Assembly: GCA_003671275.1 (NCBI GenBank)
Contig: QWPB01000187.1
Location: forward strand, 1-33,963
Direction of reading: 5' to 3'
DNA from: Planctomycetota bacterium
Lineage (GTDB): Bacteria; Planctomycetota; Planctomycetia; Planctomycetales; Planctomycetaceae
DNA: 33,963 nt
Below the pieces are notes generated by a model that made no database searches, was not told where the DNA came from, and saw nothing but the letters and a program-made list of their open reading frames with translations. Positions 13,710 through 15,530 of this stretch are shown one piece after another. Numbering within the stretch: position 1 is the stretch's first letter; every line of letters starts with the position of its first letter. Position numbers and translations under genes: made by a program.

Positions 13710-15530
13710 CTACGCCTCACGAGTCGCCCAGGCGGGAGGGAGAGCCGCGTAACGGACCCGCTGGTCGGTCAGGGGGTGCTGGAACTCCAGCCACCACGCG
13801 AACAGTCCCATCGGCGGAGCGGAGAGATCCAGAGTTTGAGTGTCCCCCAGCTTTCTCTCGGGGAGGTAAGTCGGATCGCCGACGATCGAGTGTCCCAGGG
13901 CCCACAGATGGATGCGGATCTGGTTCGGTCGTCCGGTTCGGGGGGTGACCTCCAGCAGAGCGGTCCCATCCGGGCGGCGATCCAGAACCTGAAATTCGGT
14001 GCGGGCCGCGCGGCCATTGGGGTCGACCTGATACGAGCCTGCCACGCCAGGGGACTCGCTCAACGGCAGGTCGCAGGTAAAAGTGTCCTCGACCGGATGG
14101 CCATTTACATGGGCCAGATACCGCTTCTCAATCTGTCCCGATTCGAACTGGGCCTGCAACTGCCGAGCGAAGTTTCGGGTGCGGGCAAATAACACGACTC
14201 CTTCGGTATTTGCGTCGAGGCGATGAACCGGGCGCGGATTGTAGGGGCGGTAAACCTCGGTCAGGATCTGCTGCAGGGTATTGCGATTGAACCGCCCGCT
14301 GGGGTGCATCGGCAGTGGAGCGGGTTTGTGAATGACAACGAGCGCCTCGTCCTCATGCAGCAGTTGGATATGGGCATTCACTGCGGGTTCGCATATCGCC
14401 CGCTGGACATGCAGGAACCGCTCGCCGCCGCGCACGATGTCTTCCGGCTGGGCTGGCACCGGTTCCGGTCCGGGCATCTTGCCAGGCGATTGTCGCTTGA
14501 GGAGCCGTCCTTCGGCGCAGGTTTGGAGCCAGGCTTCCCGTGGGATGTGTCCCAGCAACCGCTCCAGCATCTCGATGACCGTGAGCCCATCACATTCGGC
14601 AGGGACATTCAGCGGTCGACGATTGTCGCCGAGCAGTGAGCCGGGGAGGGGGGTTGTGGCCTGCTGGATCGCTGCCTGCCGCTCGGCGATCGCCTGAGCG
14701 GTGCGGTCCTCTGCCGGGCGATGGCAGAAAGGGCAGGAGATACCGAAGATGTATCGCGGGTCGGCCTGGTCCGTTTCGGTCAGCGGTTCCTGGCAGGCAT
14801 AACACCGTGTGGCCGGTGACTCGCTCAGATTTGGATCGAGTCCCACGCGATCATCGAATACAAAGCATTCGCCGTCGTAATGCTCGCCGCCGCACTCCTC
14901 AAAATACTTGAGGATGCCTCCTTCCAACTGATAGATCTGCTCGAAGCCTTCGTTCTCCATGAACGGGCCGGCCTTTTCGCAGCGGATCCCGCCGGTACAG
15001 AACATCACGATGGGCTGGTGCTTCATTTCTTCGGGCAGGCGGCGGACAGCGTCCGGGAACTGACGGAAGTGATCGATCCCCGCAGGCAGGGCGTTCCGAA
15101 ACGTACCAAGCTTCACCTCATAATCGTTTCGCGTGTCATACAGCGTCACGGGGCGGCCTTCGTCGAGCCACCTCTTCAGTTCGTGCGGGGCCAGCTTGGG
15201 AGAGGGCCGCCCGACGGGATCAATCCCTTCGATCCCGAAACTGATGATCTCCCGTTTGATCTTCACGAGCATGCGACGAAACGGCTGGTCGGCACTGTCG
15301 CTGAATTTGGCTTGCAGCGATTCCAGTCCCGGAATCGTCCGCAACTCGGCCAGCAGTTCTTCCGTGTGTGACCTCTGACCCGCCACGAAGAGGTTGACTC
15401 CTTCCGGCGTAATCAGAATTGTCCCCTTGAGTTGCCGTGCCTTGCAGTAGGCCAGCAGTCGCTCCCGCAGTGGTTTCAAGTCGGAGAGCGTGGCGAACTG
15501 GTAGGCGGCAATGTTCGTGACAGCAGGCAT
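13710..15530 (-). CDS. trhO: TrhO (rhodanese/UPF0176) fused to an RluA-type pseudouridine synthase
   Basis: 606 residues with two enzymes in one chain. Residues ~1-270 are a TrhO/YceA protein: an acylphosphatase-like N-terminal domain, a rhodanese domain with catalytic Cys178 (VMFCTGGIRCEKA), the downstream FVFDDRVGLDPNL and a four-cysteine cluster (C243, C246, C266, C269) like a zinc knuckle. TrhO hydroxylates U34 of tRNA (ho5U). Residues ~309-370 look like an S4-type RNA-binding segment and ~385-600 an RluA-family pseudouridine synthase, with catalytic Asp439 in VHRLDANTEGVVLFAR and the late TGRPNQIRIHLWALGH. The single frame is intact, so this is a real fusion unless a sequencing error joined two genes. 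Its stop is 3 bases before the ATP-grasp gene. Fusion suggests that both activities act on related RNA, probably tRNA; the pseudouridine target is unknown. Confidence 0.9.
   Translation of the reverse strand: MPAVTNIAAYQFATLSDLKPLRERLLAYCKARQLKGTILITPEGVNLFVAGQRSHTEELLAELRTIPGLESLQAKFSDSADQPFRRMLVKIKREIISFGIEGIDPVGRPSPKLAPHELKRWLDEGRPVTLYDTRNDYEVKLGTFRNALPAGIDHFRQFPDAVRRLPEEMKHQPIVMFCTGGIRCEKAGPFMENEGFEQIYQLEGGILKYFEECGGEHYDGECFVFDDRVGLDPNLSESPATRCYACQEPLTETDQADPRYIFGISCPFCHRPAEDRTAQAIAERQAAIQQATTPLPGSLLGDNRRPLNVPAECDGLTVIEMLERLLGHIPREAWLQTCAEGRLLKRQSPGKMPGPEPVPAQPEDIVRGGERFLHVQRAICEPAVNAHIQLLHEDEALVVIHKPAPLPMHPSGRFNRNTLQQILTEVYRPYNPRPVHRLDANTEGVVLFARTRNFARQLQAQFESGQIEKRYLAHVNGHPVEDTFTCDLPLSESPGVAGSYQVDPNGRAARTEFQVLDRRPDGTALLEVTPRTGRPNQIRIHLWALGHSIVGDPTYLPERKLGDTQTLDLSAPPMGLFAWWLEFQHPLTDQRVRYAALPPAWATREA

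Follow-up and report, generated by a model that had tools for sequence, protein, structure and literature searches.

A gene of a Planctomycetota bacterium encodes, in one reading frame, a TrhO-type tRNA hydroxylase followed by an RluA-type pseudouridine synthase. The gene lies on the minus strand of the window (the whole stretch of DNA that was analyzed, 33,963 nucleotides), as do all of its features given below. The fusion is conserved but patchily distributed, with carriers in Planctomycetota and Verrucomicrobiota and among a few further records. We propose, with a probability of about one half, that its product is a bifunctional RNA-modification enzyme, in which the TrhO half would form ho5U34 and the synthase half would isomerize a uridine close by in the anticodon stem-loop, with positions 31 and 32 the likeliest.

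Layout of the fused gene

An earlier note, made from the letters of the window, had described one intact frame for this gene, and this was borne out: 13710..15530 runs uninterrupted from ATG to stop and encodes 606 aa. The first 270 residues have the layout of TrhO and the last 220 that of an RluA-type synthase, with a helix and an S4-like domain in between. Among 130 examined loci, 116 contain the fusion in a single frame, representing 114 distinct proteins. A local accident or assembly error at the fused gene was considered, and is ruled out by these 114 distinct one-frame orthologues.

Cys178, Cys243, Cys246, Cys266, Cys269 and Asp439 sit at the positions that the earlier note gave, and are invariant in all 114 distinct fused proteins, together with Thr179, Gly180, Gly181, Arg183, Lys402, His436, Thr442 and Gly444. 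The mean pairwise identity of the fused proteins is 68.1% in the rhodanese part and 54.4% in the synthase part, falling to 39.2% in the connecting helix region and 33.9% in the S4-like domain. The AlphaFold model of the fused protein has a mean pLDDT of 90.5 and a low pTM of 0.59, so that the mutual placement of the two halves is not fixed by the model.

The TrhO half

The N-terminal half contains a UPF0176_N domain (Pfam, residues 5–95, 15246..15518), which holds Lys90 and Lys92, a Rhodanese domain (Pfam, residues 115–210, 14901..15188) with the CTGGIR active-site loop (residues 178–183, 14982..14999), and a Rhodanese_C region (residues 219–269, 14724..14876) with the four Cys residues. Within the loop, Ile is present in 113 of the 114 distinct proteins and the other residues in all. 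Rhodanese_C (PF12368) matched residues 219–252 with 23.1 bits when taken alone (cut-off 26.9) and 28.6 bits together with its neighbours in the frame, and was matched in 44/44 members at E ≤ 0.1. The closest structures to this half were Legionella lpg2838 (4f67, Z 28.2) and B. subtilis TrhO with tRNA-Ala (9j5o, Z 26.7).

The NCBIfam TrhO equivalog model NF001133 gave 239.9 bits, exceeding its cut-off of 170. A higher score, 328.7 bits, was obtained with PRK05320 (NF003703), whose name is "sulfurtransferase", and the first half could on that account be a sulfurtransferase rather than a hydroxylase. We regard this as very improbable: the score on the protein is below the PRK05320 cut-off of 331 (the DNA frame gave 331.3), while the TrhO cut-off is exceeded, and the TrhO-specific basic residues and loop are kept. 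The name itself is presumably automatic, and we take it to predate the characterization of TrhO.

In E. coli TrhO, C200, T201, G203 and R205 of the rhodanese loop are essential, and the basic residues K112 and R114 on the tRNA-facing sheet are needed, as stated in the available part of the report (PMC6599085). In pairwise alignment, Lys90 and Lys92 correspond to K112 and R114, and both positions are Lys or Arg in 114/114 fused proteins. Because the TrhO model is passed and the needed residues are kept, the N-terminal half is very probably a U34 hydroxylase; it would act as an O2-dependent TrhO, forming 5-hydroxyuridine at U34 of tRNAs reading NYN boxes. A search for CmoB in the window's genome and 12 other fusion genomes did not reveal a convincing homolog, giving only short, weak, generic PF08003 matches (best 59.4 bits). 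The ho5U in these genomes may therefore remain as such, or be converted to another derivative.

The synthase half

Residues 385–600 (13731..14378) of the C-terminal half form a pseudouridine synthase domain of the RluA type. PseudoU_synth_2 (PF00849) matched residues 397–542 with 109.2 bits (cut-off 26.8), and the best structural match was E. coli RluA (2i82, Z 27.5, rmsd 1.6), followed by RluC (Z 25.9) and RluD (Z 24.5–25.6). Comparison of the sequence with the E. coli enzymes gave the same first place to RluA (102 bits), with RluC (83.2), RluD (82.8) and TruC (72.0) behind. The score for TIGR00005 (rluA_subfam) was 177.7 bits, below the cut-off of 192.7, making this half a divergent relative that is filed outside that subfamily; the RluA orthologue model NF007543, with 100.5 bits against a cut-off of 286, was not reached either.

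The half carries the HRLD motif, Tyr471 and TGRxNQIR. Asp439 (14214..14216) is the aspartate in HRLDxxT, and we take it to be the catalytic aspartate. Arg539 is present in 113 of the fused proteins, with one gap. From these residues, the half very probably isomerizes uridine, and would be an active RluA-family pseudouridine synthase. That it serves instead as a non-catalytic RNA-binding module is hardly credible. Such a role would suit locus L029, which lacks Tyr471 and the HRLD and TGR motifs and keeps its TrhO half; against it, Asp439 is aligned in 114/114 fused proteins and Tyr471 in 113/114, L029 being the single exception, which looks like decay and not the rule. The L029 gene (1483–3330, plus strand) represents a natural single-function variant with an intact TrhO half.

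The joint and the S4-like domain

The two halves are connected by a helix and a PLPG motif (residues 273–300, 14631..14714), with the model helix spanning residues 273–291 and P296 and G297 invariant, followed by the S4-like domain (residues 301–380, 14391..14630), the fastest-changing part of the protein. The length of the joint is nearly constant across the fused proteins, with 123–143 residues (median 124) between C269 and K402. The earlier note had described the linker as S4-like, a description supported by structure and by the general RluA model. AlphaFold residues 305–606 align with RluD over its full length, the N-terminal part included (2ist, Z 24.5, rmsd 7.5), and the TIGR00005 match begins at residue 316; the Pfam S4 model (PF01479), on the other hand, was not matched in any of 44 members at E ≤ 0.1.

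Occurrence of the fusion in bacteria

According to the earlier note, a conserved fusion in several genera would support its reading. Of 59 related genomes, 24 carry the fusion, and these belong to families f1, f2, f4 and f5; it was also found in other phyla. In 23 of the 24 it is a single frame matching over more than 540 query residues, and in the remaining one (G002) it is broken by a contig end inside the synthase.

Frequencies were taken from this set and from three further samples. A sample of 392 Planctomycetota genomes contained 35 matches at E ≤ 1e-60, of which 24 extend across both halves and 11 cover the TrhO half only. Of 387 Verrucomicrobiota genomes, 65 matched: 42 were confined to the TrhO half, 22 spanned both halves, and the match in one (G822) reached residue 492. 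The third sample, drawn from the order to which Rhizobiales bacterium TNE-4 belongs, comprised 249 genomes, with 40 matches. TNE-4 is the sole genome among the 249 with a match across both halves, which suggests that its fusion was acquired by horizontal transfer.

In named genomes, 79 of the best 80 of 584 matches are one-frame fusions, a near-total share that is a selection effect, since the best 80 are biased to full length. Carriers among these best 80 include Luteolibacter pohnpeiensis, Lacipirellula limnantheis, Prosthecobacter and Opitutales records, together with records labelled Gammaproteobacteria and Deltaproteobacteria (labels as given in the records). The fusion genes of Rhizobiales TNE-4 (L077, 5001–6776) and of a Gammaproteobacteria-labelled MAG (L055, 5001–6794) may reflect horizontal transfer or a mislabelled MAG.

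Genomic neighbourhood

The next gene, P0002 (12594..13706, minus strand, 370 aa), starts 3 bases downstream of the fusion, as the earlier note had it. The note had also called this gene ATP-grasp-like and placed it in an operon headed by the fusion, and neither view was upheld. P0002 matched nothing in Pfam, in NCBIfam or among PDB sequences, the sole basis of the ATP-grasp reading being a motif-like stretch near the C-terminus; its single-sequence structure model was uninformative (pLDDT 34.7). By sequence similarity, P0002 is a conserved planctomycete family, with relatives in 37 of the 59 related genomes. Of the fused loci, 100 (that of the window among them) extend for 1200 bases or more downstream, and P0002 adjoins the fusion in the window's genome only. 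No fusion lay alongside the P0002 relatives in the 11 loci that were checked, and in the same-genus genome G001 a different stretch follows the fusion, with no P0002 within 240 readable bases. P0002 thus gives no clue to function, its adjacency being confined to this genome and its relatives elsewhere lying apart from the fusion. No conserved gene neighbourhood was found, with no neighbour family present in more than 7 of 116 fused loci. Assigning a function from the operon was therefore ruled out.

Origin and loss of the fusion

A careful tree of the synthase domain unites 34 fused and 3 split copies in a single clade, with support of 100/100. This tree omitted 11 long, duplicate or near-identical rows, including the own-genome paralogues L004 and L005, from a quick tree of 79 rows. 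The deepest branch of the clade is the unfused L202, the other 36 members grouping together at 98/86. In L202 (1875–3882, minus strand, genome G566), TrhO and its cognate synthase are encoded separately, by two overlapping genes of the same strand. A tree of the TrhO half also places L202, there joined with the single-domain row L135, outside the group of all fused rows (93/89), although its root is unsure because the E. coli TrhO row is very long. Since the deepest member of the synthase clade is an unfused overlapping gene pair, albeit a single case, the fusion may descend from an operon. Among 20 neighbourhoods of stand-alone TrhO genes, of about 6.7–7 kb each, a nearby synthase was found only in G566.

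Several TrhO-only genes are nested inside the group of fused rows in the TrhO tree. This history is most simply read as an overlapping operon that was fused once, after which the synthase half was lost several times, e.g. in L030, L203 and a verrucomicrobial set. The opposite case is found in G007 (L031), where the linker and synthase are kept and TrhO is missing; in 23 genomes that have TrhO alone, the synthase alone or no more than a fragment, a separate close relative of the synthase half is confined to G007. L052, from a metagenome assembly, has an in-frame stop at the joint. As each half has been lost somewhere with the other kept, coupling of the halves is not obligatory. Whether a free-standing RluA had been replaced was also considered; a clear RluA-like gene is present in only one of the 59 genomes, G040 (203 bits), which itself lacks the fusion.

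Target of the synthase half

The earlier note had held that the same RNA is isomerized too, and we infer the same: the fusion suggests two marks on the same tRNA, both placed by a single protein. The tRNA would be held by the TrhO part together with the S4-like domain, placing a uridine of the anticodon stem-loop within reach of the synthase. Isomerizing and hydroxylating one and the same uridine is chemically unlikely, because C5 of pseudouridine carries the bond to the sugar.

Trees do not place the synthase domain with confidence next to RluA, RluC or RluD. In the AU test, uniting the fused clade with RluA (p-AU 0.436), RluC (0.645) or RluD (0.339) was in no case rejected, and with RluC held beside the fusion the likelihood was above that of the free tree. 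In the best tree the fused clade does not group with E. coli RluA; in the careful tree it lies beside TruC and RluA at 89/74. Substrates of the RluA family cannot be read from sequence: as given in the accessible part of PMC7408541, B. subtilis YhcT is closer to RluA and acts like RluD.

An unlikely reading, although one to be weighed, is that the synthase half acts on rRNA, e.g. 23S, the fusion tying only the expression of the two activities with no shared substrate. The layout of the S4-like domain follows that of RluD, the RluC union scores highest in the constrained trees, and E. coli RluA itself is annotated as acting on both tRNA and 23S rRNA; yet RluA is the best match in both sequence and structure, and TrhO binds tRNA, as described in the part of PMC6599085 that is available. 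The same genome also contains other RluA-family paralogues, L001 (beside RluD at 91 in the quick tree) and L003, whose own targets are not assigned. The position of the fused clade beside TruC and RluA would also suit a synthase acting on the same tRNA outside the anticodon arm, e.g. at position 65 as TruC does. This we consider improbable, as TruC gave the lowest score of the four E. coli enzymes and support for the placement is weak.

For a target in the anticodon stem-loop there is a precedent in YjbO of B. subtilis, which forms both psi31 and psi32, the psi32 of tRNA-Pro(UGG) among them, according to the available part of PMC7408541. Because this enzyme belongs to the same broad family, psi31/32 beside ho5U34 is, by analogy, a plausible pair.

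We examined the tRNAs of the window's genome at these positions, counting 42 of 43 (the second Arg(UCU) copy was left out). The genome has Ala(UGC), Pro(UGG), Thr(UGU), Ser(UGA), Val(UAC) and Leu(UAG) tRNAs, which we take to be of the TrhO type (xo5U boxes). Candidate substrates would be Ala(UGC), Pro(UGG) and Thr(UGU) through U32, and Ser(UGA), Val(UAC) and Thr(UGU) through U31; Leu(UAG) has U at neither. The TrhO-type tRNAs show no enrichment of U at these two positions (5/6 with U at 31 or 32 versus 29/42 overall, P = 0.38 for 5 or more of 6), and U32 alone occurs in 6/12 U34 tRNAs versus 23/42 overall. We presume that E. coli tRNA-Leu3 is the UAG tRNA. E. coli TrhO bound tRNA-Ala1 and not tRNA-Leu3, as stated in the accessible part of PMC6599085. 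If Leu3 is the UAG tRNA, this fits the lack of U31 and U32 in Leu(UAG), without significance, as 29 of 42 tRNAs have U there.

More tentatively, and with the balance of odds against it, a single binding event could serve both reactions across Planctomycetota and Verrucomicrobiota: capture of the tRNA by the TrhO half and the S4-like domain would be followed by formation of psi at 31/32 and ho5U at 34, one mark promoting or ordering the other.

Comparison with known systems

The fusion of TrhO with a pseudouridine synthase was not found described in the open PMC literature that was searched; the architecture may be listed in UniProt or InterPro. The TrhO half shares with TrhO of E. coli and B. 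subtilis (YceA, UPF0176) the UPF0176_N domain, the rhodanese CTGGIR loop, the K112/R114 equivalents and the cysteine pairs, but TrhO stands alone in these organisms, whereas the fused half is nearer to PRK05320 and runs on into the synthase. E. coli RluA (tRNA psi32, 23S psi746) has the same catalytic domain, with 34% identity over ~210 aa, but consists of 219 aa and lacks the S4-like domain and any partner domain, and the fused clade fits unions with RluC and RluD as well. YjbO resembles the synthase half in its broad family (COG0564) and in the proposed action on the anticodon arm (as far as the available text of PMC7408541 goes), but is a stand-alone enzyme, and is likened here by description, not by sequence.

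TrcP of Vibrio is a precedent for a fused synthase working in the anticodon loop (PMC9553926, available part). In TrcP, a pseudouridine synthase is fused with a second base-changing domain, with position 32 of tRNA-Tyr as the target; unlike in our fusion, the partner is a cytidine deaminase, and the two domains act in turn on one base (available parts of PMC9553926 and PMC12588516). If both marks are made on one tRNA, the enzyme described here would couple modifications of the anticodon loop as TrcP does, yet on two different bases. The TrhO–TrmR fusion of Phytophthora and Phaeodactylum likewise joins TrhO with another tRNA-modifying enzyme, but TrmR acts on the product ho5U itself (PMC6599085, available part), whereas the partner here is unlikely to share the base.

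Sequence is a poor guide to the substrates of RluA-family enzymes, and the conserved linkage to an enzyme of the tRNA wobble base provides a strong and cheap hypothesis for one whole clade. It is testable in the named carrier isolates Luteolibacter pohnpeiensis and Lacipirellula limnantheis, and the lineages in which one half is lost or decayed (L029, L030, L031, L203) offer ready natural comparisons.

A further frame, at L200 (2185–3783, minus strand, G717), encodes 533 aa and is perhaps another TrhO fusion: beyond TrhO it continues for ~260 residues as a C-terminal part that looks unrelated and includes a membrane-like stretch.
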